In this document: positions 31,762-59,869 of the stretch, one piece after another | Position numbering within the stretch: position 1 is the first letter of the stretch | Layout of the letters: every line of letters begins with the position of its first letter | Source: a virus | Virus record (IMG/VR): IMGVR_UViG_3300037189_025323 | Coordinates: 1-64,000 of that record | Length of the DNA: 64,000 nucleotides | Direction: 5' to 3' (one strand) | Program-made: the position numbers and the translations under genes | Notes under the pieces: generated by a model | The model's input: only the letters and a program-made list of their open reading frames with translations | Told to the model about the DNA's origin: nothing | Database searches by the model: none

Positions 31762-31771
31762 TAAAAAAACC

Positions 31772-33019: not shown

Positions 33020-33021
33020 AC

Positions 33022-34239: not shown

Positions 34240-34248
34240 AATCTCTCC

Positions 34249-34842
34249 TTATCTCTTTATAATAAGAATTTCACCACGAAAACTCTTTACATATTCCTTG
34301 TAGAGAATATCCCCAGATTTCTCTTTCAAGAATTCATCAATAGCGTTCTTTACATCTGCTATGTAATCATAATCATCAACAAGCATAATTCCATGGCTTT
34401 TAATTATTCCCCAAACCATTCGCATATCATGCAAGGCTCCAGCAGTAGTGTGATCTCCATCAACATGAAAAAAGTCGAACCCGCTTTCTGGGAATTCATT
34501 AATTGATTGGGTATCTACTTTAGTCAAAGAAATATTGGACCTTGGAAAATCTCTCTTCAGAATAGAATTCGCATATTCTAACCCGGCTATGTTAGTCCCC
34601 CCATGTTCTCCACCAACAACGTCAAAACCAGAATAGGGGACGCTAAAGCCAGATCCAGACAAAAAAGCATGAGCAGAATAACCCAAACGCACTCCTATCT
34701 CACCAATTTTCTTTGGACCAAATCGCCTTGCTAATTTATACTTTGTCACATAATGATTATAGAAATTTTCCCCATGACAACCAACATCTAAAGGGTGAGC
34801 AACTATCTTCAACCAAGATTCGTAAGACAGACATTCCATCAT
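34249..34842 (-). CDS. SAM-dependent methyltransferase (Methyltransf_24-like)
   Basis: The 197-residue protein has motif I as K-I-G-E-I-G-V-R-L-G-Y-S, then D-F-F-H-V-D-G-D-H-T (strand 4 region) and G-I-M-L-V-D-D-Y-D-Y. This set is typical of the Methyltransf_24 / cephalosporin-hydroxylase-like group found in glycan clusters, where it methylates sugars or their acceptors. GAGGAG precedes the ATG, which overlaps the stop of the gene upstream. Confidence 0.85.
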   Translation of the reverse strand: MMECLSYESWLKIVAHPLDVGCHGENFYNHYVTKYKLARRFGPKKIGEIGVRLGYSAHAFLSGSGFSVPYSGFDVVGGEHGGTNIAGLEYANSILKRDFPRSNISLTKVDTQSINEFPESGFDFFHVDGDHTTAGALHDMRMVWGIIKSHGIMLVDDYDYIADVKNAIDEFLKEKSGDILYKEYVKSFRGEILIIKR

Positions 34843-35582
34843 AACACTCTCCTCACAAAAACCAATATCTTATCAACATATTCTTCCAAATCACCAACAC
34901 AATCCACAGCCTCTATTTTATCCGGAATTTTTTCCCCTAATTCAAAACACCTATTAGTCAAATCTCCCAATACCAACTTATCCCTCCGACAAATAACAGA
35001 ACCGCCTAACGCCAAATGTCTCCTAACCTGAATATCATACCCATCTTCCATATCAGACGGATAATAACCAACACAACCAGCCCTAATCTTTGAATTGAAA
35101 TCTAAATTTGAATACAAAAATTCCCTCTTAACATCAAACTGACAATTCCCCCAAGTCCTAAAAACAAGAACATCATCCGGGAAACTGAAACCACCATCGG
35201 AAAGATGAATCATTCCATTTTCTGGATTCACCAGCCGCCTTCTACCCGCTTCTAAGCCAAGAATAGGAGGAGGGGCAACCAAAGACCTAAACCCATGACC
35301 AAACCTCTTAAACGCCAAATCCTGAGCCATAGAAGAAGAAACAACAATCCCATCCCAATCCCCAACAGGATGATTCTTAACCTGTCCTAAAACAAAAAGA
35401 ATCCTCTTCTTTGCTAAAGGGCAAACAGCAACCGATCCAACACATACAGCCAAATCATAAACCTCTGTATGTGACAAAGGACTCCCATTAGAAATCCTAA
35501 TTACCTCATCAAGCCTAGATAGAGCAATTGCAATTGCTTCTAATTCAGGACTAGGATGATTAAACGCCAGTGCTATTCTCAA
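34839..35582 (-). CDS. Unknown protein in glycosyltransferase cluster, TTG start
   Basis: A frame begins at TTG at 35636, but a TTG at 35582 with GGAGG ten bases upstream is a better start, giving 247 residues beginning (M)RIALAFNHPSPEL. The pattern of alternating strands and helices, an early H-P-S-P-E, V-L-G-Q-V-K-N and G-D-W-D-G-I-V-V-S-S, fits a GT-B-like fold without clear donor motifs. It overlaps the dUTPase-fold gene upstream by 23 bases and the methyltransferase gene downstream by four. Confidence 0.65.
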   Translation of the reverse strand: MRIALAFNHPSPELEAIAIALSRLDEVIRISNGSPLSHTEVYDLAVCVGSVAVCPLAKKRILFVLGQVKNHPVGDWDGIVVSSSMAQDLAFKRFGHGFRSLVAPPPILGLEAGRRRLVNPENGMIHLSDGGFSFPDDVLVFRTWGNCQFDVKREFLYSNLDFNSKIRAGCVGYYPSDMEDGYDIQVRRHLALGGSVICRRDKLVLGDLTNRCFELGEKIPDKIEAVDCVGDLEEYVDKILVFVRRVL

Positions 35583-35964
35583 TGTTCTCTCTCCTCCCAA
35601 AAACAAACCGCTTACCTTCTTCGGAATATTCGGCAAACCTAATCGGACAAGGATTCATCTGGCAAAAACTCACAGATACAAAAGGTTGCATCCTCTTAAT
35701 ACTTGCTGACATTGAAACACATAAAACAACAAACTGAAGATCCCCATCAATATTACTCTGCTGAGCATCTAAGATAACAATACCAGGAACAACCGAAGAA
35801 TAAAATCTTTGAATATCAGCAGGGAAATAAAACCTCAAACCTGTCTTAATATACCGAATGCCACCAAAATCAAAGTTGTAGTCCTCAGCAGAATGAAGAA
35901 CCATCGGGTTCGATTCCGGAGTAATCATTTCCTTATCTATTTTATCTATTCTAATTGTCCTCAT
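35560..35964 (-). CDS. dUTPase-fold protein, divergent
   Basis: The 134-residue protein follows the order of trimeric dUTPase/dCTP deaminase folds: S-A-E-D-Y-N-F (position of the A-G-Y-D-L motif), I-K-T-G-L-R-F-Y-F-P (T-G-x-x-x-x-x-P), N-I-D-G-D-L-Q-F-V-V-L (the I-D-x-D/E-Y-x-G core) and V-S-F-C-Q-M (the late Q-L/M strand). Active-site residues are only partly kept, so it may bind rather than cleave dUTP, or have another substrate. Its place inside a glycosyltransferase cluster is odd. GGGG precedes the ATG. Confidence 0.5.
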   Translation of the reverse strand: MRTIRIDKIDKEMITPESNPMVLHSAEDYNFDFGGIRYIKTGLRFYFPADIQRFYSSVVPGIVILDAQQSNIDGDLQFVVLCVSMSASIKRMQPFVSVSFCQMNPCPIRFAEYSEEGKRFVFGRRENIENSTGV

Positions 35965-36707
35965 ATCATTCCCCTGTCTTTACGATATTTCTGAATACCC
36001 AAAGCTTTTATTGAATAAACCTTCCGAGGATGAGCCAAGTGATATCCGAATGAGCCTTCAACCCAAGAAGCCCAAGCCCCAGCTTTTAAACAGCGTTCAA
36101 CGAAATCTGGCTCTTCACCACCATATTTACACTTATAATCAGAAGAAAAACCATTAACGTCTTCATAGAACTTAACAGGAACAGAAAAGTTACCACACCA
36201 AAACCCACAAGGATTCAACATCGGACGATATCCGCGCCAAATTTCATTACCATACCCTCCCTTGTGAGCATTATAAAGAAACTCTATATACTCAAAACAA
36301 GAAATATCATCAATCTTAATTAAAGAAGCAATTGTTGAAACAATCTCCCTGATAAACCCTCCACCTAAATTAAAATCAGGAAGGTCTTCATGTAATTTTA
36401 CAGAATCAGGAGAAAGTAAGACATCTGCATTAGAAATTAAGAGCCTTATTCCTTTTAATCTTCCAAGCCCCGCATTGTAAACCCCTGCAACATTATACCC
36501 GTCATGTTTGGTTGTTACATAGGACAATGGGAAAGGGAATCGACTCCCAGGCAAAGCATCAAGCCATTCTATAGTCCCATCAGTTGAACCATCATCCGAT
36601 ACAATAACCTCAATAGGCAACACGCTTTGTTTGGATAACGCCTCCAGAGACAATTCTAAAGTTTGTCTCTGGTTATAAGAAGAAATAATTACAGAAGTTT
36701 TGCTCAT
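35961..36707 (-). CDS. Family 2 glycosyltransferase, paralogue of the giant enzyme's last domain
   Basis: The 248-residue protein has S-V-I-I-S-S-Y-N-Q-R, V-I-V-S-D-D-G-S-T-D-G-T and, in the second half, F-W-C-G-N-F-S-V-P and Y-G-G-E-E-P-D-F-V, the last being the galactosyltransferase-type C-terminal motif. It aligns over its full length with the last domain of the four-domain enzyme (for example I-E-W-L-D-x-L and H-P-x-K-x-Y-S). TAAATG at the start shows a close link with the gene upstream. Confidence 0.88.
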   Translation of the reverse strand: MSKTSVIISSYNQRQTLELSLEALSKQSVLPIEVIVSDDGSTDGTIEWLDALPGSRFPFPLSYVTTKHDGYNVAGVYNAGLGRLKGIRLLISNADVLLSPDSVKLHEDLPDFNLGGGFIREIVSTIASLIKIDDISCFEYIEFLYNAHKGGYGNEIWRGYRPMLNPCGFWCGNFSVPVKFYEDVNGFSSDYKCKYGGEEPDFVERCLKAGAWASWVEGSFGYHLAHPRKVYSIKALGIQKYRKDRGMI

Positions 36708-37456
36708 TTAACTATTTGAGATAAAGCTTCCATAATTTCTTCACATTTTACATCAGTCTCACAAATGTTCTCTTGTTTATTCGCACATTTAATCTTCAAA
36801 ACATTATTAAATAAAGAAACTGCATTCAATTTTAAACACTCATTTTTGCTACAACATTCACCCGAAACCATTCTGCATGGAATCCCCTCTCTGAAGGGAC
36901 GAATATGCTTTTCAGAAAAAAATCCATTAACAAAAACCATCGGGATATTAGTTGCCATCGCAACCCAAGACATATCCTCTGCACAACCAACAAAAGCTTT
37001 ACCCTGACTTAACAGATTAACCAAAAGACACAAATCATTTGCTGAATATCCAAGAACAGACATCTTTGGATAAGACAAAGCGATTTGCTTTACTATCTCA
37101 GGATAACGATTAGAGAATAATTCGCCAACATATACAACATCAGGAACCTTAATATCTTGATATGGATGAAAAACCCTCATCCTCCTAGATCTCAACCGAA
37201 CGTCTCCCAAAATAGCCAAAGAATAAACATCCATTAAATGGGCATCAAAAATTGAATCTACAATAACATCTAAATCAATAATAGATTTCCCTTTGAAAAA
37301 CCCAATTTGATCTACATCTGGATTCCCATTAAATATCTCAGGATTTGTTGTCTCCAAAAGAATTTCATCTTGAGGATAACGGATCTTACACTCATGAATA
37401 ATAGAAGTTAAAATTAAACTCTTTCTAACACCACCATGAAGAAGTTTGATAACCAT
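36704..37456 (-). CDS. GT9-like (heptosyltransferase-like) glycosyltransferase
   Basis: Start taken at the ATG at 37456 with AAAGGG nine bases upstream (250 residues). It begins V-I-K-L-L-H-G-G-V-R-K-S and has S-I-I-H-E-C-K-I-R-Y-P, N-P-D-V-D-Q-I, and a late M-A-T-N-I-P-M-V-F-V-N-G and C-C-S-K-N-E-C-L-K, as in bacterial heptosyltransferase-type enzymes where a Cys-rich S-x-x-E-C-L turn is common. It should transfer a sugar to a lipid or glycan in the cytoplasm. Confidence 0.75.
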   Translation of the reverse strand: MVIKLLHGGVRKSLILTSIIHECKIRYPQDEILLETTNPEIFNGNPDVDQIGFFKGKSIIDLDVIVDSIFDAHLMDVYSLAILGDVRLRSRRMRVFHPYQDIKVPDVVYVGELFSNRYPEIVKQIALSYPKMSVLGYSANDLCLLVNLLSQGKAFVGCAEDMSWVAMATNIPMVFVNGFFSEKHIRPFREGIPCRMVSGECCSKNECLKLNAVSLFNNVLKIKCANKQENICETDVKCEEIMEALSQIVK

Positions 37457-37458
37457 AA

Positions 37459-38748
37459 TCAGCAACCCTTTAATTTTACATTACTACTTCTGCATTGGCG
37501 GAAGCTATAACCATAAGATTTTATCTTCTGACAAAACTCAATCCACATTCGATCACTCAATGAAGTAAAACCACCACAATCTAAAATTATTTTACGAGGA
37601 AATGCAACAACCCCGCCACTTAATTGCATAGGAGAATCATTCCCCACATGACAACCCACAATCCCAACATTGTTTTCAATCAAACAAGCCATCTCCTTTA
37701 ACCAAGAGCCAGCCAACGAAACCCGATCCTCAATCAAAACAATCAAATCACTGGATGTATTCATTAACACAGTATTTAATTCATTAACAGAAGAATCCCT
37801 GTAAACACAAAAGATCTCTTTAGAAGGCATATTCGATAAACAAGCAGTCAGCCTATCCCTCTCAAAATCATTCTCAACAATTAAAACAATTGAACATTGC
37901 TTTCTGTTCAAAATCGGATTGTAAATATTCTTTTGCTTAGGCAAGGAATTCCCAGAAAATTTATTCCTTATCTGCAAAATAGAATGCGCTTCTCTAATCC
38001 CTTTCGGCTTCCTTCCTTCTGCACGAACATAATACCTAAGGATATTTTGATCCAGACTCACATACCCATTATCACTCTGAGGCAAGGAATTCGGACACAA
38101 CAAACAAACCTCTTGCGCCCTATTAACCTTCAATGCTTCTGCTAAAGAAAAAATAAAAGATTGATTCCCTATAAACAATGAAGATCCAAGAAGTACCTGA
38201 CAAATATCAACATAAGAAGTCGGGACATAAAGAGGAATATCCAGTCCAGTCTTCTCTTTGAAATCATTATATTCTTCAGGGAAACCAATAAAAACTGAGT
38301 CTTTTTCCCACCCTCTTAACTCTTGCCATCTAAAAGGTCCAACATATCGACTGCTTCTATTAACAACAATCTTCCCAACCGTCTTTGGACTAAACCCTTT
38401 TAGCCATTGACAAGACAAATCACTTTCCACTCCAAAATATTTTAAATGACATTTAGCTAAATGTTCTACAACTAAATCATTTGCTTTTCTAAAATTATCC
38501 AAGTCGTATTTGACGGTTCTATTGTCATATTCTAAAACATCAGAAATGCCACATTGCCCAACCAACAAGTCTTTCATCCATCCAAGTTCTTGTTCACTCA
38601 ATGGTCTTCCAATGAAAGCATCTGAATCCCTCACTAGAAGCAATTTCCCGCCCCCAAGGGCAAGAATCGTAGGCAAGGAGTAGACAATATCCCCTCTTGC
38701 CCCTGAGTGCCTGAAAGTAGATTCTTCAAGGATTGGATTTTCCATCAT
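37459..38748 (-). CDS. Two-part glycosyltransferase-like protein (GT9-like + GT2-like)
   Basis: Start at the ATG at 38748 (429 residues); the frame extends to a GTG at 38760 that has no room for a ribosome site. Residues about 15-270 look like a GT-B enzyme: H-S-G-A-R-G-D-I-V-Y-S-L-P near the start and F-I-G-N-Q-S-F-I-F-S-L-A-E-A-L as donor helix. Residues about 280-429 resemble a short GT2 domain with V-L-I-E-D-R-V-S at the metal site. The two halves recur separately in neighbours. Confidence 0.75.
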   Translation of the reverse strand: MMENPILEESTFRHSGARGDIVYSLPTILALGGGKLLLVRDSDAFIGRPLSEQELGWMKDLLVGQCGISDVLEYDNRTVKYDLDNFRKANDLVVEHLAKCHLKYFGVESDLSCQWLKGFSPKTVGKIVVNRSSRYVGPFRWQELRGWEKDSVFIGFPEEYNDFKEKTGLDIPLYVPTSYVDICQVLLGSSLFIGNQSFIFSLAEALKVNRAQEVCLLCPNSLPQSDNGYVSLDQNILRYYVRAEGRKPKGIREAHSILQIRNKFSGNSLPKQKNIYNPILNRKQCSIVLIVENDFERDRLTACLSNMPSKEIFCVYRDSSVNELNTVLMNTSSDLIVLIEDRVSLAGSWLKEMACLIENNVGIVGCHVGNDSPMQLSGGVVAFPRKIILDCGGFTSLSDRMWIEFCQKIKSYGYSFRQCRSSNVKLKGC

Positions 38749-39142
38749 AAGAAACTTCACCCCTCAATATTGCCCGAGTTGACCACTTCCCTATTCTAGG
38801 AATAAAAGCAACTCGAATTTCCAAAGCCTGACACAGAACATACTCTGGGCAGTTAGTCCCATATTCTTCAGAAATACAATGAACATCAGGACGAATCATG
38901 TTTATTAAAGGACAAGCGTTTGCTTCATCAAAGACATAAACAGCTTTCACAAACCCAAGATCCATAATCTCATTCCGTCTCTCATCTTCTGGAATTGGAT
39001 TATATCCCTTCTTTGATTTAATGTATCTATCACTATTTATCCCAACAATAAGGGAATCACCTTGCCCTCTAGCAAATCCCAAATAAAATAAATGTCCCGA
39101 ATGCAAATGAGAAAAACAACCATTACAAAAAACAGTCTTCAT
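38726..39142 (-). CDS. Cytidylyltransferase-like nucleotidyltransferase (RfaE2/TagD type)
   Basis: The 138-residue protein opens V-F-C-N-G-C-F-S-H-L-H-S-G-H, giving the H-x-G-H active-site motif at residues about 14-17, then V-G-I-N-S-D-R-Y-I-K-S-K-K-G and P-E-D-E-R-R-N-E-I-M. This is the pattern of the RfaE C-terminal domain and glycerol-phosphate cytidylyltransferase, which attach a nucleotide to a sugar phosphate. It is likely to make an activated sugar (ADP- or CDP-linked) for the GT9-like enzymes beside it. Its ATG overlaps the upstream stop. Confidence 0.9.
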   Translation of the reverse strand: MKTVFCNGCFSHLHSGHLFYLGFARGQGDSLIVGINSDRYIKSKKGYNPIPEDERRNEIMDLGFVKAVYVFDEANACPLINMIRPDVHCISEEYGTNCPEYVLCQALEIRVAFIPRIGKWSTRAILRGEVSYDGKSNP

Positions 39143-40053
39143 GGTTTGGCTACAACCCCACTCACTCTCCGATACTTCTTTAATCCAAAAGTATCCAAAT
39201 AAATCACGTCACGTTTATTCCCAATCCCATAAACGTCTTTAGTTTGAGCATGACGAGATTTAGAAACTTCCCCAAGATCATCCCACAAACCACACAAAGA
39301 ACAAATACCGTCTTTTGATACCTTCTTATTGAAAAAACCTCTACTATTCAACAAGTCTATAAACTCATCTGAATAAAGGCCAATCTCCCCAAAGAAAGAA
39401 ATGAAATCAAAATTCAAACCAACATCAATTATCCTCATCTTGGAAATAAAATCATCATTAACCTCAGTAGTGTCATGCAAAAGAAGCCAGTAATCCCCAA
39501 ACATAGACGAAACAGCCGCCAAGGCACTTAATCCATCATGGTTCTCTTTAATGTAGACATAAGAAATTCCATCAATGATTGCCCGACTTGATTCTTTAGA
39601 CCCAGCAACAACCACCAAGATATCTTCCTTCGGGAAAGCAACCCTAGTCAAAGAACGCAATAGACGGGGAATCGTCTCTTTGATATAATCAACATGACTA
39701 GAGATACAAATCCTAAAATTACCAAGAGGCTTATACGGATAAAGAACTGCTCTCAAAAATCCAAGCTTCTGAGCTTCAAGAAATGATTCTCCAACCAAAA
39801 ACGATGATCCATTTCTAGCCTCAGCACCGTAAAAAGTGAAAAGTGGTTTTTTCCACTGATCATAAACAAACAAATTCCCTTTTAGAATTTCCCATTTACC
39901 AACCATATCCCCACTATAACTACCATCTTCTAAAAATCGGATTTTAGCCAGACGATCATATTTGGTAGACGGTAAAACATTACGAGCTAAAATCAATTCG
40001 GTTGAAATTAACTCGTTAAAAAAAGATTCAGTCAAGGGAACAGGAATATCCAT
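39139..40053 (-). CDS. Glycosyltransferase-like protein with N-terminal beta domain
   Basis: The 304-residue protein starts with about 100 residues that include a small beta domain (I-R-F-L-E-D-G-S-Y-S-G and W-E-I-L-K-G-N-L-F-V-Y-D). From residue about 112 it resembles a GT2 domain: F-R-I-C-I-S-S-H-V-D-Y, D-I-L-V-V-V-A-G-S and Y-W-L-L-L-H-D-T-T-E-V, where the usual D-x-D is replaced by H-D-T-T. That change may mean a different metal use or loss of activity. GAGG precedes the ATG. Confidence 0.65.
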   Translation of the reverse strand: MDIPVPLTESFFNELISTELILARNVLPSTKYDRLAKIRFLEDGSYSGDMVGKWEILKGNLFVYDQWKKPLFTFYGAEARNGSSFLVGESFLEAQKLGFLRAVLYPYKPLGNFRICISSHVDYIKETIPRLLRSLTRVAFPKEDILVVVAGSKESSRAIIDGISYVYIKENHDGLSALAAVSSMFGDYWLLLHDTTEVNDDFISKMRIIDVGLNFDFISFFGEIGLYSDEFIDLLNSRGFFNKKVSKDGICSLCGLWDDLGEVSKSRHAQTKDVYGIGNKRDVIYLDTFGLKKYRRVSGVVAKP

Positions 40054-40065
40054 AACTTATTTACC

Positions 40066-40935
40066 TCAAAAGTCTAAATTGTGTTTCTTCCTAAGATATT
40101 CAATCATAAATTCATGATACCCATGCTCAAACTCCACCCCAGCAGCAGTCTTAACCGTCTGAGATCTTCCGCCCCACCAAACATGCCATGTCCAACCATT
40201 GTAATCACAATTCTTGGCAGAAAACCTACCATCAAAGGTTTCTGCATTAAAAGGAAATGTCTTGATTTCTTTCCCTTCATCCAAACAATCCCTTGTTAAT
40301 TGCTCTCCTGTATCTGTATTAGGCCAATTATCCAAGAAAGAATGATTCTTTAACCAATCAGTCCACCCAAACAAATAAGAAGGACACACATAGTCTTTCG
40401 TAATCCGACCATATCCCCGGCTAATACCAGAAAGCATAACCTTATCATTTAAATAAAAAGCAGGACTCAACCATTCAGGACTAACAGGGAAAGCATCAGA
40501 ACATAAAGTACAAGTAATAGGATACTTGGCTACATGCCTAACTAAATAATTTAAAACAGAACCATGGCGAAAATGCTCTCCCCGATCATTTTTAATCACT
40601 TTTAAACCCTGATCCTGCAACCACTCAACAGAACCATCATCCGAGCCATTATCAAAAAAGATAATCTCATAAGGAATAAATTTTGTAAACTCTCTGATAT
40701 TCTTTACCGCAATCTTGTTATAGAACAAAACATTATAGGTAAGAATACAAATGGAAACCCCAACTATTGGAGACAACCCCGAATGAGGACCTTGGACAAC
40801 AAATTTCTGCTTTAATGTCTTAAGCTCTTCAAGCCAAGTCGCAATCTGAGCATTCTCAGAAGAAGATCCTGGTAAAGTCTGAGAACATAAGTTTGCTATG
40901 TCTTTAAACTTTTTAATTGAGTCATCTAATTCCAT
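40066..40935 (-). CDS. Family 2 glycosyltransferase
   Basis: In 289 residues, the GT-A core starts near residue 58: V-G-V-S-I-C-I-L-T-Y-N, I-I-F-F-D-N-G-S-D-D-G-S and later L-C-S-D-A-F-P in the metal-site position. An N-terminal helical stretch of about 50 residues precedes it. GAGG precedes the ATG. Sugar and acceptor unknown. It shares the S-D-A-F-P/D-S-D-C-F-P pattern with the next two genes, so the three may be distant paralogues. Confidence 0.85.
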   Translation of the reverse strand: MELDDSIKKFKDIANLCSQTLPGSSSENAQIATWLEELKTLKQKFVVQGPHSGLSPIVGVSICILTYNVLFYNKIAVKNIREFTKFIPYEIIFFDNGSDDGSVEWLQDQGLKVIKNDRGEHFRHGSVLNYLVRHVAKYPITCTLCSDAFPVSPEWLSPAFYLNDKVMLSGISRGYGRITKDYVCPSYLFGWTDWLKNHSFLDNWPNTDTGEQLTRDCLDEGKEIKTFPFNAETFDGRFSAKNCDYNGWTWHVWWGGRSQTVKTAAGVEFEHGYHEFMIEYLRKKHNLDF

Positions 40936-40944
40936 CTATACACC

Positions 40945-41853
40945 TCAAGGATTAAAAAGCCTATCATTGACTTCAAGGAATTTTACCATTTCAGCATACA
41001 TAATCCTCATCTTGAAGTCAGCAATCTCCTCTTCCCTATCCAGCTTAAATTTATGACTTAAAGAATCATCCAAAAGCCAATCTGCACTTTTATTTTCCAA
41101 AACTTTCCTGCAAGCATCAGAAAACATATCGTCTCTATCAATTTTATACCCAGTTAATGTTTGGGTGGCTCCACCATAATGGAAAACCTTGTCTCCATAA
41201 ACCAAACAAACATGCCTGTTAAATTCTGGATTAAAATCAACCCCATCATTCGCCTTACAGCAACGGGTTAGCTTAAATCCAGTAACCGGAAGACCTAACT
41301 CATGTGCCTTACAAGGAACCATAAACCCCGTGTCATCATTGGCCATATAATCAATGTTGTTATCATAAACAAAAGAAAGCTTAGTTAACTGACAAGCAAC
41401 ATGTGTATTGTTCCAACAATGTTTTTCCCGGATTCTCCTCTCAATATTACCCTTCATAACACCAATGGGAATTGGTTGCCAAGGATACAAAATCCCAGCA
41501 ACCCCAGCCCCATTCTTAAGCATCTTAATTAGATCATCCAACCAACCACTCGCTACGGGGAAACAATCCGAATCTAAAGTCAAAAGATAATCGCCACTCA
41601 TCTTCTCTTTTAAAGCCTGATTCAATAGAGTTCCATGGATAAAACTTCCCCGAAGTCCATCCTGAACTCCATATCCATAAACACTAACAGGAAACTTTGA
41701 AATCAAATCCTCAATATCAAGAGGCAAAGCTTTGTCATAAATAATACGAAAATCAATTTGATCTTTGTCTGTATATTTAAATACACTTTCAAGACAAGAT
41801 TGGAAAACATCCCTAGTCCCTGGACGATAAGCCGCTAAAATTACAACACCCAT
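40945..41853 (-). CDS. Family 2 glycosyltransferase (tandem paralogue 1)
   Basis: The 302-residue protein has the GT2 metal site as L-T-L-D-S-D-C-F-P-V-A-x-G-W-L and a later C-W-N-N-T-H-V-A-C-Q-L and N-P-E-F-N-R-H-V-C-L-V-Y-G-D-K-V. All these stretches recur in the same order in the next gene upstream, which marks a tandem duplication. AAAGGAG lies 12-13 bases before the ATG. A 138-base gap upstream contains no gene I can support. Confidence 0.88.
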   Translation of the reverse strand: MGVVILAAYRPGTRDVFQSCLESVFKYTDKDQIDFRIIYDKALPLDIEDLISKFPVSVYGYGVQDGLRGSFIHGTLLNQALKEKMSGDYLLTLDSDCFPVASGWLDDLIKMLKNGAGVAGILYPWQPIPIGVMKGNIERRIREKHCWNNTHVACQLTKLSFVYDNNIDYMANDDTGFMVPCKAHELGLPVTGFKLTRCCKANDGVDFNPEFNRHVCLVYGDKVFHYGGATQTLTGYKIDRDDMFSDACRKVLENKSADWLLDDSLSHKFKLDREEEIADFKMRIMYAEMVKFLEVNDRLFNP

Positions 41854-41991
41854 AAAATCTTCTCTCCTTTAAAATCACAATCATACCTTCAACTTCAAAT
41901 AAAATATTTTTCATCCTTAAAATCTTAAGAGAGGAAAAAGAATACCTACCTTCAAGAAATGATTTATACAACGATGCACAGTAAGAATACT

Positions 41992-42906
41992 TCACCCAGC
42001 CAACCTCTTACTGGACAAACCAAACAGTCTCTCCATCTTTTCCTTAGCAACGTCCTCTTCTCTATCAAGTTTGAATTTATAACAGAACCGATCATTCAAT
42101 AGAAACTCTGCACCTCTTCCCCATAACACCAAATCCTCACACCATGTAAAACTCTTGCCAAAAACTCTTTCATCATCTGTAGTCCTAACCCGACTAAATC
42201 CACCATGATGATAAACCTTATCCCCAAAAACCAAACACACATACCTATTAAATTCAGGGTCTAAATCCCCTTCCCAGACCTTAGGGCAACGAGTAACCTT
42301 AAACCCGTCTATAATGCCACCCATCTCTTTTACCATCTTAGGAATCAACAATCCAGTGTCATCCCCACCATTAAATCGACAACCATTAGCATGCAATTCC
42401 AAATAATCTTTAGTCCTCATCAATTGACAAGCAACATGAGTCCTTTCCCAACAATGTTGAGATCTTACCCTGTATTCAATCTTATTTGTAGCAACCCCAA
42501 CAGGAGGAGCCCAAGGATGAAGAATCCCAGCAACCTTAGCTCCATTCTCAAGCATCTTAATTAAATCACTTAACCAACCATCTGCTACGGGGAAACAATC
42601 TGAATCCAAAGTCAAAAAATATTCGCTATCAATCCGATTAGGAATAATAGCATCAAGCATTTTTCCATGAGTCTTACTAGTCGCCTCCTCTACACCCATA
42701 GGAAGACCAATAACCTTTAATGCTTTTACAGAAACAATATCTTTCAAAATAGGCATCGGATTAAGATTTGACTCACAAGGCAATAAGCTTACAAGCATAA
42801 CGTCATAATCAACATCTTTCGTATGCTTACCGATGCTCTTCAAGCAAGCAGTAATCATATCTTCAGTGCCATGACGCCAACACACCACAATTGAAACTTT
42901 ACTCAT
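41992..42906 (-). CDS. Family 2 glycosyltransferase (tandem paralogue 2)
   Basis: The 304-residue protein opens V-S-I-V-V-C-W-R-H-G-T-E-D and shares L-T-L-D-S-D-C-F-P-V-A-D-G-W-L, C-W-E-R-T-H-V-A-C-Q-L-M and D-P-E-F-N-R-Y-V-C-L-V-F-G-D-K-V with its tandem neighbour, plus a conserved K-F-K-L-D-R-E-E tail. This is the first gene of the glycosyltransferase run after the DNA polymerase block. A short hairpin lies just upstream. Confidence 0.88.
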   Translation of the reverse strand: MSKVSIVVCWRHGTEDMITACLKSIGKHTKDVDYDVMLVSLLPCESNLNPMPILKDIVSVKALKVIGLPMGVEEATSKTHGKMLDAIIPNRIDSEYFLTLDSDCFPVADGWLSDLIKMLENGAKVAGILHPWAPPVGVATNKIEYRVRSQHCWERTHVACQLMRTKDYLELHANGCRFNGGDDTGLLIPKMVKEMGGIIDGFKVTRCPKVWEGDLDPEFNRYVCLVFGDKVYHHGGFSRVRTTDDERVFGKSFTWCEDLVLWGRGAEFLLNDRFCYKFKLDREEDVAKEKMERLFGLSSKRLAG

Positions 42907-51546: not shown

Positions 51547-52482
51547 TTACTTTATTAATCTCCAAACATCTTTGAGAATACTAACAAACCTAAATGTAAT
51601 AAAATACTTCTCCAATTCTTTCGGATCATAAGTTTTCAAAACCCTAGGCTTTGGAACATAAGGAAGAATATCCATTTGTTTCAATGATTTGGCTAGCATC
51701 ACTCTTGGAATACTATCCAAAAGAACCTGTTCCTTTTTGGATTTTTTAGGCTTAGCCTTAATGGCTTCAATTATGTTTTCCAAACTGCCATGCTCACGAA
51801 CATACTTACAAGAAGTTACAGGACCCCATCCCTCACAACCAAAAATATTATCCTTGGTTGGTCCCTGTTCCCCCTCCAAGGCACCAAGATCAACCCAAAG
51901 ACTTGGATCAAATTGAAACTCAAGCTTGAATCTCTCTTTGGTCCAACGCTCTTGTTTCATGGCATCATAAACAATAACATTGTCATCTATAACCTGCATA
52001 AAATCATGATCTGAAGAAACAATAACAGTGTCTCCTCCATTTGCCTGATTTTGTTTTGCATAGGTATAAATAACATCATCACCTTCTGCCCCATCAATGC
52101 CAACCTGAAGACACCTGACAAGGTTCAAAGCATCCTTCATCTCATCCATTTGCTCATGAATTTCTTCAAGGATTTGAGCCTTGTCAGGGTCTTGAGCCGA
52201 AAGCTCAGCCGTGCTTCTCCGATTGGCTTTGTAAGCAGAAGGAATCAACCCCGCTTCAACAGCCTTAGTGGATTCATCTAGTCGGCGTTGATATCCTCTA
52301 TCCCAAGCAATAACCCGAAAGTGATCAGGAAACTCCTTGTGTAAGGAAATCAAAGCCCTAAAGAATCCATACAACAACCCCGTACATCTTCCATTATAAC
52401 TAAGCTCCTTATGAGCCCAATAAGAACGATGGCTAAGGTTGTTCCCATCAATCAAGAGAAGCTTTGGCTTACCATCAGGCAT
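51547..52482 (-). CDS. 5'-3' exonuclease / flap nuclease (PolA N-terminal type)
   Basis: Start at the ATG at 52482 with GGAGG seven bases upstream (311 residues). The FEN/5'-3' exonuclease family shows L-L-I-D-G-N-N-L-S-H at the start, W-D-R-G, E-G-D-D-V-I, V-S-S-D-H-D-F (the D-x-D cluster) and later G-C-E-G-W-G-P-V-T-S as the helix-hairpin-helix DNA grip. It should remove RNA primers and flaps during replication. Its gene overlaps the end of recA by eight bases. Confidence 0.92.
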   Translation of the reverse strand: MPDGKPKLLLIDGNNLSHRSYWAHKELSYNGRCTGLLYGFFRALISLHKEFPDHFRVIAWDRGYQRRLDESTKAVEAGLIPSAYKANRRSTAELSAQDPDKAQILEEIHEQMDEMKDALNLVRCLQVGIDGAEGDDVIYTYAKQNQANGGDTVIVSSDHDFMQVIDDNVIVYDAMKQERWTKERFKLEFQFDPSLWVDLGALEGEQGPTKDNIFGCEGWGPVTSCKYVREHGSLENIIEAIKAKPKKSKKEQVLLDSIPRVMLAKSLKQMDILPYVPKPRVLKTYDPKELEKYFITFRFVSILKDVWRLIK

Positions 52483-53650
52483 CTTGTTCCTCCACCAATT
52501 CCGCATCTACTTGTTTAACGCTACCATCGGGAAGAGCCTCCTCTAAAGAAGTCACAGGGGTTCTCTTAATCATCCCCTTTGGCTTTTTGATAGCAACAGC
52601 AGATTCCCCTTCCTCTGCCTCCAAAGCATCTACCGGATCTTTAGGAGCATTTTTTACAGCCTCCTCCAATTCTGCAAAGAATTGTGGGGTTTTCTTAGCA
52701 AAATCAATGAAGTCTTTTCTGCCTGCTCCAACAACTTGATCCTTATAAGAGATTTTTGCCCCTCTCTTTGTAACAACCTTAATCGCAATTGCCTTATCGC
52801 AAATAGCAGCAACCCGATCAATTCCTGTTCCAAAGGAAATGTAGAAGATAGCCTTCTTGAAAGGAGCAGCAGTCTTGTTCTTCTTTACATCTGCCTGAAC
52901 CTTGCTCCCAACAATAATCTCTCCATCCTTCTCTTTTGAAATAGAAGAGATATTCACCCGAATAGAAGCGTAATGGCGCAAGGCTCTACCACCGGGAGTT
53001 GTTGTTTTATCCCCATACATGACACCAATCTTTTCACGCATCTGATTGGTCCAAAAGATAGTAGTACCCCGCTTACCAGCCTCAGCGCAAAGAATTCGCA
53101 TTGTTTGAGACATCAAGCGAGCTTGTTGCCCAACATGTTGATCGCCAATGTCACCATCAAGCTCAGCCTGAGGAGTCAAAGCAGCAACCGAATCGACAAT
53201 GATAAGACCAACCCCAAGCTGAATCAAATGACGAACAACCTTAAGAGCCTGTTCACCACTTTCAGGCTGATTCACAAGAAGCAAATCAGTATCTACACCC
53301 AAATTCCTAGCATACTCTTCATCAAATGAAAACTCAGTGTCAACCAAAGCAACATCTTCATCCGGAGCATCTTTTTGGAACTCAGCGATAGCATGCAAGC
53401 AGGTAGTGGATTTACCGCCAGATTCAGGCCCAAAAAGTTCAATAAACCTCCCCTTTGGCCAACCTCCTCCCAATGCAGAATCCAATTCGGGACAACCAGA
53501 AGAAAAACGAGCAATAGGAATAGTATCACCAGAACCCAAAAAGGTAATAATATCCTGGGCTTTTTCAGCCTTCTTAATCGTATCACAAATCTTCCGCAAC
53601 CGTTCAAACCGCTTTTGCCGATCAGGAGTCATCTGAATATTTGAAGCCAT
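52475..53650 (-). CDS. recA: RecA recombinase
   Basis: The ATG at 53650 is preceded by TAGGAGAG and gives 391 residues; the longer frame extends through the terminator. The RecA core is complete: Walker A G-P-E-S-G-G-K-S-T-T, the acidic strand L-V-D-T-E, L-I-I-V-D-S-V-A-A-L-T-P (Walker B), G-D-x-H-V-G-Q-Q-A-R-L-M-S and T-N-Q-M-R-x-K-I-G-V (L2). An acidic/charged C-tail of about 70 residues follows. It drives strand exchange. It works here beside gp32-like and UvsY-like partners, a mix of bacterial and T4-type parts. Confidence 0.96.
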   Translation of the reverse strand: MASNIQMTPDRQKRFERLRKICDTIKKAEKAQDIITFLGSGDTIPIARFSSGCPELDSALGGGWPKGRFIELFGPESGGKSTTCLHAIAEFQKDAPDEDVALVDTEFSFDEEYARNLGVDTDLLLVNQPESGEQALKVVRHLIQLGVGLIIVDSVAALTPQAELDGDIGDQHVGQQARLMSQTMRILCAEAGKRGTTIFWTNQMREKIGVMYGDKTTTPGGRALRHYASIRVNISSISKEKDGEIIVGSKVQADVKKNKTAAPFKKAIFYISFGTGIDRVAAICDKAIAIKVVTKRGAKISYKDQVVGAGRKDFIDFAKKTPQFFAELEEAVKNAPKDPVDALEAEEGESAVAIKKPKGMIKRTPVTSLEEALPDGSVKQVDAELVEEQDA

Positions 53651-53663
53651 AAACCACTCTCCT

Positions 53664-53690
53664 AAAAAAGGGGATGGACAATCCATCCCC
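53664..53690 (-). terminator. Terminator whose T run abuts the recA ribosome site
   Basis: A perfect 9-bp GC-rich stem (53670-53678 with 53682-53690) with a 3-base loop is followed on the minus strand by TTTTTT, directly before AGGAG of recA. Read as RNA, it would end the transcript of the SSB gene or throttle read-through into recA. Confidence 0.9.
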
Positions 53691-53706
53691 CGGTTTAACC
53701 TCTATC

Positions 53707-53994
53707 TCAACCGCCTTTTTTCTGCTCGCACTTAACTGCAAATGGGCATTCTTTGCATTCATGACTCTTCTTGTCATAAGTCCCAAAACATTCCCAGTCT
53801 TTTTCAGGATCAATGTTTGAGAAATCAAGAGCCGATTTCGAGCTAGCAGAAGACTCTGACTTTAGAACCGGAATCTCTTTCTCCGGTTCTGGCTGGGAAA
53901 CAGGAGCCGAAACTGGCTTAACAGGCTTAGATTCTACAGGAGCAACCTGAGACTGCCTTGACGGTTCCGGCTTTTTCTCCTGAACCTCAGTTAC
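53707..53994 (-). other. Minus-one frame extension of the SSB gene (candidate frameshift product)
   Basis: Directly after the SSB stop a 95-codon open frame continues in the -1 frame and ends at TGA (53707-53709). It begins right at the A9 run (53995-54003) that ends the SSB frame; slipping at A-AAA-AAG, the same heptamer used by dnaX, would add the tail. The tail is Pro/Val/Glu-rich, then ends in a cysteine module C-x-G-x2-D-K-K-x2-E-C-x2-C-x5-C. An identical-spacing module is at the N-terminus of the protein at 59111-59869. No start codon begins this frame, so it has no independent reason to exist. Confidence 0.7.
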
Positions 53995-54932
53995 TTTTTT
54001 TTTACACCCGAAGAACCACCAATTGCATCCTCATCCTCATCACCAAGAGCATCATCTTGCTCTTCCTCTTCAGCCATCTTCCGGGGAATCTTCCCAGCAG
54101 ACTTAGGAGGAGTAGCAGGAGCAGCTTCCTCCTCTCCAGAATTCAGATCCAGCAACTCCCGAAGATCAGGATGGAGTGCATCCATAAGCAAATCAAAAGC
54201 TGTTTGCTTACCACAAATGGTCTTCAAATCATGGAGATCCCAAGAACGCTCTTCAGCAGTCAAAGGAGTAACCTTGACGGAAAGAGGCTTCCCAAACAAT
54301 ACAGCCTTAGCTGCATAAGTAGTCTTAGCCCCACTCCCCTTGGTAACACAGATATCAATGCCTTCATCAGTATCAGTGATATCAAAACCACACTGATTGA
54401 AGACACCTTCGATATCACGCCACAATTCCTTTCCAACCGTAGCAATCTTCAAACCAGGGACCTTGATTTCGTTCCCATTATCAACCTTGATGATATACGG
54501 GTCATCACGATCAATAATGTTCCACTTCAAAGCAACACGAGCATAAGAAGCCTGCTTAAGAGCCTCAAAGAACTTCTTCTCTTCAGCGTTGGGGTTCTCC
54601 TTAAGAGCCTGTTTTGCCAAAGCAGAAAGCTTGCAGAAGGGGCAAGTACGATCCTTCTTCATTTCTTCCTTGGCAATGTCCCAATCAAGGCAATTCACCG
54701 TAGCGGGAATCTTCCCTTCACCCTGAAAAGACTTGCCTTGGCACAGCCCACGTTCCCCACGTTTCGGATTGGGACAAACATAGTGAGTATGAACCTCAGT
54801 CATTTCCCCAACCAGACGGACAATGTTATCAGCATCTTTCCAAGAATGGAAGATACCCCGGAAAGAACTGAAGTTAGTCCGAACCGGTTCCCGTTCCTTC
54901 ATCCGACGAATCTTGTCCAGTACGCTACTCAT
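53991..54932 (-). CDS. gp32-like single-strand DNA-binding protein
   Basis: The ATG at 54932 has AAGGGAG seven bases upstream, giving 313 residues; the frame continues to 54992 within the UvsY-like gene. The core resembles T4 gp32: H-T-H-Y-V-C-P-N-P ... T-C-P-F-C-K near residue 115 for a zinc site, an OB-like strand set, and W-N-I-I-D-R-D-D-P. The C-terminus is acidic (E-E-E-E-Q-D-D, D-E-D-E-D), typical of SSB tails that contact replication partners. It ends at G-S-S-G-V-K-K-K where an A9 run allows -1 slippage. It coats single strands and should work with the RecA and UvsY-like proteins. Confidence 0.85.
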   Translation of the reverse strand: MSSVLDKIRRMKEREPVRTNFSSFRGIFHSWKDADNIVRLVGEMTEVHTHYVCPNPKRGERGLCQGKSFQGEGKIPATVNCLDWDIAKEEMKKDRTCPFCKLSALAKQALKENPNAEEKKFFEALKQASYARVALKWNIIDRDDPYIIKVDNGNEIKVPGLKIATVGKELWRDIEGVFNQCGFDITDTDEGIDICVTKGSGAKTTYAAKAVLFGKPLSVKVTPLTAEERSWDLHDLKTICGKQTAFDLLMDALHPDLRELLDLNSGEEEAAPATPPKSAGKIPRKMAEEEEQDDALGDEDEDAIGGSSGVKKK

Positions 54933-54969
54933 GACGCTACTCCCTTGTTTGCCTTTTTTTACCTTGGCA

Positions 54970-55551
54970 TTAGCCTTGAAGTTTTTCCTCATGCCTTTGC
55001 CTAATCACAGATTTAACCCTACTAACACTGCTTGTCATCGAACCCGTATTCCTTGCCTTTTCCTCAGACAAAGAGGAATTAGAGTTATAGTTTTCCATGT
55101 TGTTTAAATTGGCATATTCACGGATCGTAAAGGATTTTTGCCTCCAAGCCTCAAGATATGAATCCATCGTATCATAATCAAATTGAGCTTCCTCAATCCG
55201 CCTTTCCCAATCCTCAATCTGAATCTCATTATCAACGATGAATCTTGCCTCAATATCTGCTACGGTGGTTTTCCCGGTTCCAGCACCAAGACTAGCCTTA
55301 GCTTCTGCATATTTCTTCTTAGACCAACGATCATAAGCCTTCTTTAAATTACTCAACTGCCTACTAGCTTCCTTCTTCACTGCACCATAATAAGCAATTG
55401 CGTTTGGTTGCATAATAACATGCATATCCAAATCAAGCTTACTAACGTCAAGAAGATCTGGACCTGCATCCTCAAGACGAATCCCACAAATGTCTTGCTG
55501 GCCTAATTTCATAGACATTTCAGCAATATTTTGAATCACAGCCATTGTCAT
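54970..55551 (-). CDS. UvsY-like recombination mediator
   Basis: Start at the ATG at 55551 (AAAGGAG five bases upstream), 193 residues. The protein is helical and follows the UvsY pattern: early L-D-L-D-M-H-V-I-M-Q-P, a helix with K-K-E-A-S-R-Q-L-S-N-L-K, A-R-F-I-V-D-N-E-I-Q-I-E-D-W and a final D-S-Y-L-E-A-W-R-Q-K-S-F-T-I-R. UvsY-type proteins load the recombinase onto gp32-coated DNA. Its gene sits between the SSB gene and the unknown gene that precedes it, in keeping with that job. The family call is by pattern and context, so moderate. Confidence 0.7.
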   Translation of the reverse strand: MTMAVIQNIAEMSMKLGQQDICGIRLEDAGPDLLDVSKLDLDMHVIMQPNAIAYYGAVKKEASRQLSNLKKAYDRWSKKKYAEAKASLGAGTGKTTVADIEARFIVDNEIQIEDWERRIEEAQFDYDTMDSYLEAWRQKSFTIREYANLNNMENYNSNSSLSEEKARNTGSMTSSVSRVKSVIRQRHEEKLQG

Positions 55552-56245: not shown

Positions 56246-56678
56246 CAAAATACTCCTTGACTTGACTAACTATATTTTGATCCTGATCAAATAATAACGG
56301 GAACAAACAATCAACATTTCCCGAACGTCTAAACATGGCGATAGCTTCTTGCTTCATCATAGAATCATTTGATTCTAAAATCCCAACTAGATCTTCAAGA
56401 TTTCCCCCTCGCTTCCCTAGATGCCTCATAGCCTCAAATACAATTGATTTATCTTGCTCGTCTCTCAACACATTAAACAACAAACTAACATTCCCCTTTG
56501 CCCCTATAATCCTAATTGCAGCCATCCGTACAAGGGAATCTACATGATTTAAAAAAGGCTCTATCGGGGAAACATCAACTTTTATGCACTTCAAGATATT
56601 ACGAATATCACTTTCGTAAACCTTTCCGGATTTAAGCCGGGATGCACAAGTCAAAACAGCCCTTTCAGGAAAAGTCAT
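56220..56678 (-). CDS. HEAT-repeat-like protein
   Basis: The 152-residue protein has about four tandem helical pairs with the HEAT pattern, such as V-R-M-A-A-I-R-I-I-G, F-E-A-M-R-H-L-G-K-R-G and K-Q-E-A-I-A-M-F-R-R-S-G, each about 32 residues apart. Such arrays are protein-binding scaffolds. AGGAGAGGG precedes the ATG, which overlaps the end of the split-helicase gene. A partner could be the helicase halves upstream. Confidence 0.75.
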   Translation of the reverse strand: MTFPERAVLTCASRLKSGKVYESDIRNILKCIKVDVSPIEPFLNHVDSLVRMAAIRIIGAKGNVSLLFNVLRDEQDKSIVFEAMRHLGKRGGNLEDLVGILESNDSMMKQEAIAMFRRSGNVDCLFPLLFDQDQNIVSQVKEYFDERERKCV

Positions 56679-57651
56679 ATCCCTCTCCTAGAACATCTGT
56701 AAGGTCCATATGCTCTTTAGACTCCAATAATTCCTTACGATTGCTAATACCCCTATCCTTTAGGGCTATTGCCTGTCCCTTTGTTATACCGCCGATTTTG
56801 ATAAGTTTGACAAGCTCCGAAGAAATTGCTTTTTTAGACCTAAGCAAAAGATCATCAAAAAAACTCTGCATTCCCCAATTAGATACATCAGAATCAATAG
56901 CAGAAAGAACCTTGTAAATTCTTCCAAAGTCACTCTTTAACTCGATTGATTGATTCTTTAACTTGCCAACCGGAGGACCACCAAAAACATGCCACCATAA
57001 AAGAACAGTCAATACACAACCATCATCTATCTCCAAGGGAACAGGAAGACGGTTGCGACAATCCTCTATTATCTCACCCAACTTGCTACAATCACCAGAA
57101 CGACGATTGTTCCTTACATTACCCAAAGCCCAAGCCAAGGCAAGATCATCATTCTCTAAGCCAAGCTCAAAAATGAAAGAGAAATTATTCTTCCAATCAC
57201 AAACATCTGAAGAATGGAAATAATAAGAAGCAGTAATACTCCCCAGAGGAGTAATCTTTACGAAATTACCATCCCAAATTACACAACCATGCTCAGACAA
57301 AAACTCAAAAATCTTTTCCCACTTAACCTCAAATCCAAGATAAGAATGAAAACTTCTTTCATGCCATAACTCAGCACTAACTACATCCAAAACTTCTTCT
57401 GATGCAATCTCAGGAAGAATATGAAAAGCCAAAAGATTCTTTTTACTCAAGACAGAAGATATGCTCAACTCACTTGCAAGATTTAATCCATTCTCTACAT
57501 AATCAGCATCGCTTTCAGCCACAATTAAATCAGCATGGCACTCCCCTAACTCATGCCCTCTTCCCGCTCGTCCGCACATTTGGCGTAAACTTCCAATGGG
57601 AATTCTCTCACCACGCCGACTTGCGCCAACAATAATTACTCTATCAGCCAT
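56665..57651 (-). CDS. Split Ski2/Hel308-like helicase, C-terminal half
   Basis: The 328-residue protein begins M-A-D-R-V-I-I-V-G, exactly where an intact Hel308-type helicase continues after T-S-T-L-G-A-G-V-N-L-P, and soon has Q-M-C-G-R-A-G-R-G, helicase motif VI. Winged-helix and ratchet-type helical regions follow, with late R-G-I-S-N-R-K-E-L-L as a helix-hairpin-helix-like end. The N-terminal half with ATP-binding motifs is encoded at 58210-59109. Its start overlaps the stop of the uracil-DNA glycosylase gene between the halves. Each half alone should be inactive; together they could form a working helicase. Confidence 0.85.
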   Translation of the reverse strand: MADRVIIVGASRRGERIPIGSLRQMCGRAGRGHELGECHADLIVAESDADYVENGLNLASELSISSVLSKKNLLAFHILPEIASEEVLDVVSAELWHERSFHSYLGFEVKWEKIFEFLSEHGCVIWDGNFVKITPLGSITASYYFHSSDVCDWKNNFSFIFELGLENDDLALAWALGNVRNNRRSGDCSKLGEIIEDCRNRLPVPLEIDDGCVLTVLLWWHVFGGPPVGKLKNQSIELKSDFGRIYKVLSAIDSDVSNWGMQSFFDDLLLRSKKAISSELVKLIKIGGITKGQAIALKDRGISNRKELLESKEHMDLTDVLGEGYDFS

Positions 57652-58198
57652 TTTGTGAAATAAACTCCCGAATCTTCTTTAAGTCTTTAATAAAAAGATC
57701 TCTAGTCTCCACATTGTTCATCACCAAAGGAGAAGGATGCAACAAAGGAAGAACCGGAATCATATATCGGGAAGAAATAATAAACTTCCCATGATGCTTC
57801 ATCAAGCCATGCATCCCTGTTAATGACTCGAAAGCTGATGATCCCAAAGTAACAATCAAAACTGGATTGACTTCCTTTATCTCTCTATCAAGATGAACTC
57901 GACAAGCTGAAAAATTCTGCTCTGTAAGTAAATACTTTTCCGGAACCAAACACCGAATTACATTTGAAAAATAAAAGAATGAACGGTTTAGCCCAACATG
58001 TTCTTTTATTGCTTCATCAAAATTCTTACCAGAAACCCCAACGAAAGGCTCTCCCTCCCTTACCTCGTCCTTTCCCGGACTCTGACCAATAACCATGATA
58101 GAAGCTTGTTCATTCATATTAGAAAAAACAACTCCCCTGCCACCTAAAGGGCAAGCTTTACAAGACAAACAATTTTCTTTAATTTCCTGCAAAGACAT
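57644..58198 (-). CDS. Uracil-DNA glycosylase, 4Fe-4S type (family 4/5)
   Basis: The 184-residue protein has four cysteines placed for an iron-sulphur cluster: C-x2-C-K-A-C-P-L at the N-terminus (10, 13, 16), then Cys83 and Cys99. The active-site parts are G-Q-S-P-G-K-D-E (motif A), E-P-F-V-G-V-S-G-K and L-L-H-P-S-P (motif B). It should remove uracil from DNA. It is lodged between the two halves of a split helicase gene, with no clear ribosome site at its start, so translation is likely coupled to the upstream half. Confidence 0.92.
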   Translation of the reverse strand: MSLQEIKENCLSCKACPLGGRGVVFSNMNEQASIMVIGQSPGKDEVREGEPFVGVSGKNFDEAIKEHVGLNRSFFYFSNVIRCLVPEKYLLTEQNFSACRVHLDREIKEVNPVLIVTLGSSAFESLTGMHGLMKHHGKFIISSRYMIPVLPLLHPSPLVMNNVETRDLFIKDLKKIREFISQNG

Positions 58199-58209
58199 AA
58201 AACACCATA

Positions 58210-59109
58210 TTATAAATTTACACCCGCACCCAAAGTGCTTGTTGAGACCAAAATATCCAATCCAGATCTTGGATCAGAAAAAGCTTTTTCTATTTTGTTT
58301 CTTAAAGCAAATGACAAAGAAGCATTATGGAAAGCAGATCTAAAACCGGAAGATTTCAACCTCTTGCATATATCAGCACCAAGAACCTTTGAATGAACAA
58401 AAATAATGATCTTCCCTTCATTATTAGAAGCAAGCTCAACAGCCTTATCTATCTTATCCTGATATCCATCCTCTACCACATGAATTTCAGTAGTAATAGC
58501 TGTTGGTCTCCAACTACTAGTAAAACATTTCGTTGTTTTACCATTCAGCTTCTTCAACCACTTCGCCAAATCTATAGCATTACCCAGCGTAGCAGAAAGA
58601 AGAATAATCCTCGCTTGAGGATTTATCTTGGTTATTCTCATCAATGATGTCTCTATCGAACCATTTCTTTCCCCCATGATATGAGCCTCATCAACTACAA
58701 CACAAGTAATTGAATTGACCCAATCCCGGTACCGACTTCCCCGAACCTTTGAATCAAAAGACTCTGAGGTTACAATCGACAATCTCCCCTGTATGAATTC
58801 CTCAGGAGTAGTTCCATGGTCACTAGTGCTAATAACCACAGAGTACTTAGACAATTGATCGTTCGCTTTCCAAGCCTTAAACTTTTCCTCACTAAGGCTA
58901 CGGAAAGGACAGACAAAGACAACCCTAGCCGAATCATTTTGACTTAAGTGATAAGCAAAAGCACATTCGGCTAAGACTGTCTTCCCTGTTGCTGTTCCAA
59001 ATGCTGCAACCACGTTCATATCTTTATCAATGAACGGAATTACAGCACTTTGGACCGGATTATATTCCGGAAAAGGAGGCTGATAATAAGGAAAGTCAAT
59101 CGTATACAT
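58210..59109 (-). CDS. Split Ski2/Hel308-like helicase, N-terminal half
   Basis: Start at the ATG at 59109, four bases after the stop of the gene upstream; 299 residues. The ATPase lobe has A-A-F-G-T-A-T-G-K-T (Walker A), V-V-V-D-E-A-H-I-M-G (Walker B/DEAH), L-L-S-A-T-L-G (motif III) and V-S-T-S-T-L-G-A-G-V-N-L (motif V), after which a stop codon ends it. In intact relatives the next residues are P-A-x-R-V-I-I; the C-terminal half begins precisely with M-A-D-R-V-I-I. The gene was therefore divided at a conserved loop with one proline lost. Confidence 0.9.
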   Translation of the reverse strand: MYTIDFPYYQPPFPEYNPVQSAVIPFIDKDMNVVAAFGTATGKTVLAECAFAYHLSQNDSARVVFVCPFRSLSEEKFKAWKANDQLSKYSVVISTSDHGTTPEEFIQGRLSIVTSESFDSKVRGSRYRDWVNSITCVVVDEAHIMGERNGSIETSLMRITKINPQARIILLSATLGNAIDLAKWLKKLNGKTTKCFTSSWRPTAITTEIHVVEDGYQDKIDKAVELASNNEGKIIIFVHSKVLGADICKRLKSSGFRSAFHNASLSFALRNKIEKAFSDPRSGLDILVSTSTLGAGVNL

Positions 59110-59110
59110 A

Positions 59111-59869
59111 TTAGAGAACAGCGTCAAAGATTTCTTGAATCTTCTTGGTCTTCTCTTGATACGAAAGCCTTTCTTTCGTTGGCTTCCCTCCCTTTACCTT
59201 CACTGTCTTAAAATAAGAAAACTCCTTCTTAACCCCGTCCTTATTCATGAAAACAGCATCACCAGATGCCTTTTGAAGGACAACCTGCAAACCCTTATCC
59301 TCTCCATAAATGAAGAGATAGACATCAGAACCAAACCCACCCTTAACATTCGGCTCTACTCCAAGCTTTTCCTTCAACATGTTAATGATAGGAAGCTGAT
59401 CCAAATCATCCTTCTGAGGCTCCACAACCAACACAGGAGCAACTTCCGGGACAATCGCAAGAACCTTTGGCTCTTCCTTTTTTACCTCAATCTTAATTTC
59501 TTCAACAGGAACATCCTCTTCCTGTTTTTTCACAACCTCAACATCAGCCGTCCTAACAGGAGTCGCCAAAATTTCTGGCTTAACCACTTTCTTATGGACA
59601 GGAGAAGAGGACGCAACACACCCAGAAGCAACAACAGGAGCCACAGGAGTAGCAATAACCACAGGAGCAGGAGTAACTGTAGCTACCGGCTTTGCCTTAG
59701 CAGGAGAAGCCTGTAGCGTGTTAATATTGACAGTAGCCTCCAGACACGCTTGGAAAACCAAGCACTGTGAGCATTCCTTGGCTTTCTTATCAAAATGTCC
59801 CCAGCAAGTAGCCGAATGATGAACCTTTGCTCCAGCAACAACACTCTTCTCAGCCTCTTCCGTTCCCAT
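59111..59869 (-). CDS. Cysteine-module protein with long Pro/Val linker
   Basis: The 252-residue protein begins with a cysteine module, C-x-G-x2-D-K-K-x2-E-C-x2-C-x5-C at residues about 22-42, identical in spacing to the module at the end of the SSB frame extension. A 90-residue Ala/Pro/Val-rich linker follows, then a small alpha/beta domain from about 160 (G-S-D-V-Y-L-F-I-Y-G and S-Y-F-K-T-V-K-V-K-G-G-K-P). The function is unknown. A zinc-binding adaptor linking two partners fits the layout. AGGAG precedes the ATG. Confidence 0.7.
   Translation of the reverse strand: MGTEEAEKSVVAGAKVHHSATCWGHFDKKAKECSQCLVFQACLEATVNINTLQASPAKAKPVATVTPAPVVIATPVAPVVASGCVASSSPVHKKVVKPEILATPVRTADVEVVKKQEEDVPVEEIKIEVKKEEPKVLAIVPEVAPVLVVEPQKDDLDQLPIINMLKEKLGVEPNVKGGFGSDVYLFIYGEDKGLQVVLQKASGDAVFMNKDGVKKEFSYFKTVKVKGGKPTKERLSYQEKTKKIQEIFDAVL

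Follow-up and report, generated by a model that had tools for sequence, protein, structure and literature searches.

A probable conserved programmed −1 frameshift at an A9 run in a gp32-like SSB gene of phages

The SSB gene in one stretch of phage DNA, analysed over its full 64,000 nucleotides (the window), raises the question of whether a single gene is decoded into two proteins with different C-termini. The gene lies on the minus strand and ends with GGT GTA AAA AAA AAG TAA. The zero-frame product closes with GVKKK, and its TAA stop (53991-53993) stands directly 3′ of a slip site with nine A residues (53995-54003) and the heptamer A AAA AAG (53994-54000). The −1 frame opens 27 nt ahead of this run and continues beyond the stop as a tail of 95 sense codons (53707-53994, minus strand), which reads GTA...GGT TGA down to position 53707 and consists of a P/E/K-rich linker followed by a Cys module. 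ATG, GTG and TTG codons were sought in the window's −1 frame and none was found. Both observations from which the earlier note started, the SSB frame stopping right behind nine A's and the start-less −1 frame with a cysteine module spaced as in another protein of the same block, are confirmed in the sequence.

The zero-frame product (53991-54932, minus strand) matches phrog_1192 (E 3e-11), as do 15 of the 17 aligned relatives, and comprises an OB core with Cys ligands and an acidic tail. The ORF containing it extends from 53991 to 54992 on the minus strand; the homologues start at an internal ATG (54930-54932), from which the start of the gene was inferred, and an SD-like AAGGGAG lies upstream. 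Residues C79, C95 and C98 are invariant in 17 SSB sequences, and acidic tails are also present in the family. The Pfam gp32 family (PF08804) matches L017 and L019 and gives no match with the window SSB, and a search of the PDB by sequence returned no relative. Modelled with AF2, relative L113 has a core with pLDDT above 90, and T4 gp32 (8gme_B; E 1e-4, prob 1.0, target TM 0.45) is the one PDB structure that this model matches significantly. By profile, modelled fold, core cysteines and acidic C-terminus, the protein is assigned to the gp32-like SSBs, with ssDNA binding as its predicted function.

In the window, the SSB gene is located upstream of a RecA/UvsX-like recombinase (52475-53650, minus strand; Pfam RecA E 1e-83; the start at 53650 is our own reading) and a 5′-3′ exonuclease, an order kept in relatives; SSB adjoins RecA also in LysYB1, XacN1 and other cultured phages. 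Between the stop of the −1 frame and recA, there is a terminator-like hairpin with a T run (53669-53691, minus strand), recognized by consensus match only. Elsewhere on the minus strand, a ribonucleotide-reductase-like ORF (1341-5147; CFVKGTEVLTRDG...VVNGVVCKN) and a glycosyltransferase-like ORF (8218-10722; CVDSSMRVSTDCG...FISHN) both look intein-bearing, and the long run of glycosyltransferase-like genes at 26839-42906 (minus strand) holds unusually many for one phage block.

The composition of the −1 tail is that of a coding sequence. Its codon-usage score of +0.45 bits/codon, compared with a mean of +0.31 (sd 0.10) for the genes of the window, exceeds all off-frame controls, and the remaining two frames over the tail score −0.48 and −1.13 bits/codon, with 3 and 10 stops. 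The tail is also homologous to in-frame tails of relatives L107, L111, L113 and L114. It carries the Cys module CFGTYDKKSHECKECPFAVKC with the pattern C-X10-C-X2-C-X5-C (53728-53790, minus strand), and the few residues beyond the module close the frame. Exactly equal Cys spacing occurs in CWGHFDKKAKECSQCLVFQAC, near the N-terminus of a second protein of the same strand (59111-59869, module 59744-59806), to which positions 705-1310 of relative L051 are a small homologous match.

This second protein has a low-complexity middle and is possibly a partner with the same docking module. It adjoins a DEAD/Ski2-like helicase (56665-59127, minus strand), whose two halves form separate ORFs on either side of a uracil-DNA-glycosylase ORF. 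The split falls between motif V (..GAGVNL*) and the half with motif VI. The order of the three ORFs (helN-UDG-helC) is kept in L103, L104, L110, L111, L112, L113, L114 and L116; in L051/L108 and L109, the helicase halves adjoin without the glycosylase ORF.

The Cys module was searched for at the DNA level in viral contigs, blind to the sequence that precedes it. Besides the window's phage, the first search matched three others, all of which carry the module in frame in SSBs of the same family. A relaxed pattern gave many more matches; many of the long ORFs among them are SSB-like, with the module in frame near the C-terminus, and phrog_1192 matches 8 of the 10 module-bearing SSB-like ORFs checked. 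At least 12 distant gp32-like SSBs carry the module C-terminally, in frame and without an A run, and the in-frame fusions include L017, L018, L019, L025, L035, L036, L056, L066, L068, L072, L107, L111, L113, L114 and others. Since in-frame tails exist in close as well as distant relatives, the module is a real C-terminal SSB domain. Judged by the sequences compared, that of the window is unusual among phage SSBs for being out of frame. With this, a Cys module common to many phage SSBs is defined; it is probably a small metal-binding docking piece, the metal binding being suggested just by the four spaced cysteines. Variants of the module were also observed. In L110 (5963-6652), the −1 tail has 229 codons and bears several zinc-ribbon-like CxxC pairs beside the usual module, and L044, L067, L070 and L057 encode short stand-alone proteins that are scarcely more than the module. 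The SSB of L057 (30% identical) has no tail, and its small module protein is encoded nearby.

The relatives of the window SSB were gathered by scans with two SSBs and then with seven, and the last scan found no new members. An initial SSB alignment proved too divergent for scanning, and scans with the window's SSB or RecA as a lone query returned the same phage only; RecA matches on bacterial contigs labelled as phage were dropped. Searches of cultured phages by tblastn with the window SSB and its tail gave nothing useful, those with the SSBs of the relatives gave no match, and no cultured member of the clade came to light. In L051, which shares synteny with the window across 12 genes, the SSB gene ends with TCA AAA AAA AAG TAA, that is, again with A9, and the module is again in the −1 frame. 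Nine distinct genomes, drawn from several metagenomes, have the whole configuration of A run, stop and −1 Cys module (the window, L103, L104 (=L105), L106, L108 (=L051), L109, L110, L112 and L116), and the SSBs of the other eight share 44-57% identity with that of the window. The run is A9 in eight genomes and A10 in one (L116), yet the tail of L116 is still in the −1 frame. The zero-frame stop follows at most two codons past the run in 9/9 (TAA in eight, TAG in one). Within the 92 kb of the nine loci, there are nine coding-strand runs of at least nine A's, one per locus and every one at this place, and every other homopolymer in the window is shorter than the SSB A9.

The −1 frame opens 2-36 nt ahead of the run in the nine loci; therefore, the shift would have to take place in the run or beside it, and in L116, where the opening lies 2 nt ahead, in the run itself. 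Within the overlap of the two frames, a slippery heptamer of the type XXXYYYZ, A AAA AAA, is in the zero frame in all nine loci and A AAA AAG in six, the other three (L103, L104 and L116) having only A AAA AAA (or AAT). The codon phase and the base after the run vary, with CAA AAA AAA AGC in L103 and AAT in L104 and L116. Other relatives of similar divergence (L107, L111, L113 (=L115) and L114) have the tail in frame and lack any run of at least seven A's. A stretch resembling DFSxIDPEDWECFG ahead of the module is common to both states, as seen in the window and L110 compared with the in-frame L111. The tree is poorly resolved and includes at least two changes of frameshift state. The earlier note had asked whether homologous SSB genes keep the run and the tail, and neither of the two outcomes that it named as refuting was encountered: the run is no lone miscall, and the tail can be traced through the related phages, nine of which have it in the −1 frame and others fused in frame.

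RNA structure is concentrated at the same site. When the 75 nt just past the run are folded, z lies between −1.7 and −4.9 across the nine loci, with a mean of −3.7; coding windows of the same loci average −0.35, and none of 100,000 resamplings reached −3.7; the significance persists with one locus per clade. In the frameshift loci, the z profile along the gene peaks exactly at the slip site, and no comparable peak was found inside the genes of the in-frame relatives, where it occurs only at and after the true stop. In the window, the predicted stem-loop (53959-53989, minus strand; −10.7 kcal/mol) starts 4 nt past the heptamer and is weak when taken alone, with z of −2.5 in a 39-nt window and roughly −1.4 to −1.8 in one of 75 nt. 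The start of the stem varies from 0 to 34 nt among the loci, exceeding the usual spacer of 5-9 nt in L108 and L110. Helices are kept in closely related loci, but covariation is sparse, with compensatory changes in 2 of 18 pairs for L108/L109 and in 5 of 19 for L104/L112/L106, where some pairs are broken. The possibility that these hairpins are terminators after the zero-frame stop was rejected because no U tract lies behind them and because the terminator-like hairpin of the window follows the −1 stop. In the loci inspected by eye, no Shine-Dalgarno-like stimulator, which is an optional feature, was seen at 8-17 nt upstream.

The explanation that best fits these data, and which we hold with considerable confidence, is a conserved programmed frameshift producing a short acidic-tailed and a long Cys-tailed SSB, mainly through ribosomal −1 slippage. 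Decoding in frame would stop at the TAA after the A run and yield the gp32-like SSB with a free acidic C-terminus. In a fraction of events, decoding would shift to the −1 frame on the run and add the linker and the four-Cys module. The ribosome would slip at A AAA AAA or A AAA AAG with the assistance of the 3′ RNA stem-loop, and RNA polymerase slippage on A9 probably supplies A10 transcripts giving the same long protein. That the shift is programmed, in the sense of being kept by selection, is indicated by the comparison of the conserved site, the conserved −1 tail and the downstream structure; from these we infer that both products are made. The reading of a programmed −1 frameshift offered by the earlier note is thereby supported.

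The account closest to this one, and a possible though clearly less favoured one, is purely transcriptional: the polymerase would add an A on A9, and the A10 mRNA would be read normally into the long SSB. The run never falls below nine, although a heptamer needs fewer residues, and keeps a length of nine or ten despite the varying phase and next base, which points to transcription. For the length of A9, slippage as well as counter-selection is documented: runs of nine A or T slip efficiently in bacteria, and many genomes, a large share of them, bear signs of selection against 9-nt runs (PMC1088944, PMC5009743). The downstream structure, on the other hand, can act on the ribosome and not on a polymerase that has yet to copy it, and for this reason the ribosomal route is favoured; moreover, ribosomal sites typically have a conserved stop directly behind the run. 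Both routes give an identical long protein and both may be used. As between ribosome and transcript, there is evidence for each, the 3′ structure speaking for the former and the fixed minimum run length for the latter.

Three other explanations were weighed. The A tract could be phase-variable and switched between lengths in the DNA, since homopolymer tracts can hypermutate and L116 has A10; the tail of L116 is nevertheless in the −1 frame, so that no sampled run-bearing phage is "on", and the downstream structure is left unaccounted for, which makes such switching quite improbable. Marginally less credible still is the synthesis of the tail as a separate small protein by re-initiation past the SSB stop. 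An ATG stands 12 codons into the tail in L108 and L109, and some phages have the stand-alone module proteins (L044, L067 and L070), but the tails of the window and L103 lack ATG, GTG and TTG, no stop interrupts the −1 frame across the run in 9/9, and the conserved A9 would have no explanation. Finally, a plain in-frame fusion of the kind present in more distant relatives might be masked by an error of assembly or base calling, or by the recent loss of one base. Homopolymers are error-prone, and a second, longer assembly (IMGVR_UViG_3300032304_002285), identical over 59 kb with A9 included, may share its reads with the window. Nine divergent phages share the slip site, however, and the in-frame relatives do not have any A run; an error is therefore very unlikely, and we give it the least credence of all these alternatives.

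If the programmed frameshift is accepted, the two forms would have different roles. In T4 gp32, the acidic C-terminal domain contacts replication partners. One passage in the literature also presents a proposal that this domain binds back at or near the protein's own ssDNA-binding surface (PMC5892887). By analogy with tau and gamma, we suggest that the short form coats DNA and that the long form is a sub-stoichiometric recruiter of partners. A more speculative and rather doubtful reading is that the frameshift is self-regulated: just as T4 gp32 binds the message that encodes it, the SSB would bind its mRNA at the structure of the slip site. If true, the level of SSB or of free ssDNA would set the ratio of coating to Cys-tailed forms, making it a concentration-sensing isoform switch of the replisome. 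Gene callers would cut these SSBs short, leaving the tail absent from annotation. Most of the frameshifts known from phages lie in structural genes, such as those for tail chaperones; to our knowledge, this would be the first conserved frameshift in an SSB gene, and searches of an open-access library found no earlier one.

Among known systems, the closest parallel would be dnaX, where a replication protein is likewise made in a short and a long form (tau/gamma) from one gene via an A run: one hub protein of the replisome with two C-termini at a set ratio. In Escherichia coli, dnaX undergoes a ribosomal −1 shift at A AAA AAG with an SD element and a stem-loop; this heptamer is found in six of the nine SSB loci, where a 3′ stem-loop is predicted as well. 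In Thermus thermophilus, transcriptional slippage on A9 in dnaX leads to mixed mRNAs. In a few bacteria, the short form of dnaX terminates at a zero-frame stop immediately past the site of the shift (PMC5009743), as here. Unlike dnaX, the present gene is a phage SSB gene, the added part is a Cys module, and no SD-like element was found. The lambda G/GT tail-assembly chaperone is alike in that a phage −1 shift near the 3′ end of the gene adds a C-terminal domain, and this type is conserved across divergent phages; it differs in being a structural gene, with a protein and a site unrelated to those of the SSB. The in-frame SSB-Cys fusions belong to the same family and carry the same module, but they are always fused, give one product and have no A9 run. 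T4 gp32 and the gp32-like phage SSBs share the OB core, the conserved Cys ligands, the acidic C-terminus and the adjoining RecA/UvsX. T4 gp32 is a single product, and compared with it, the SSB described here would gain a second C-terminus through recoding.
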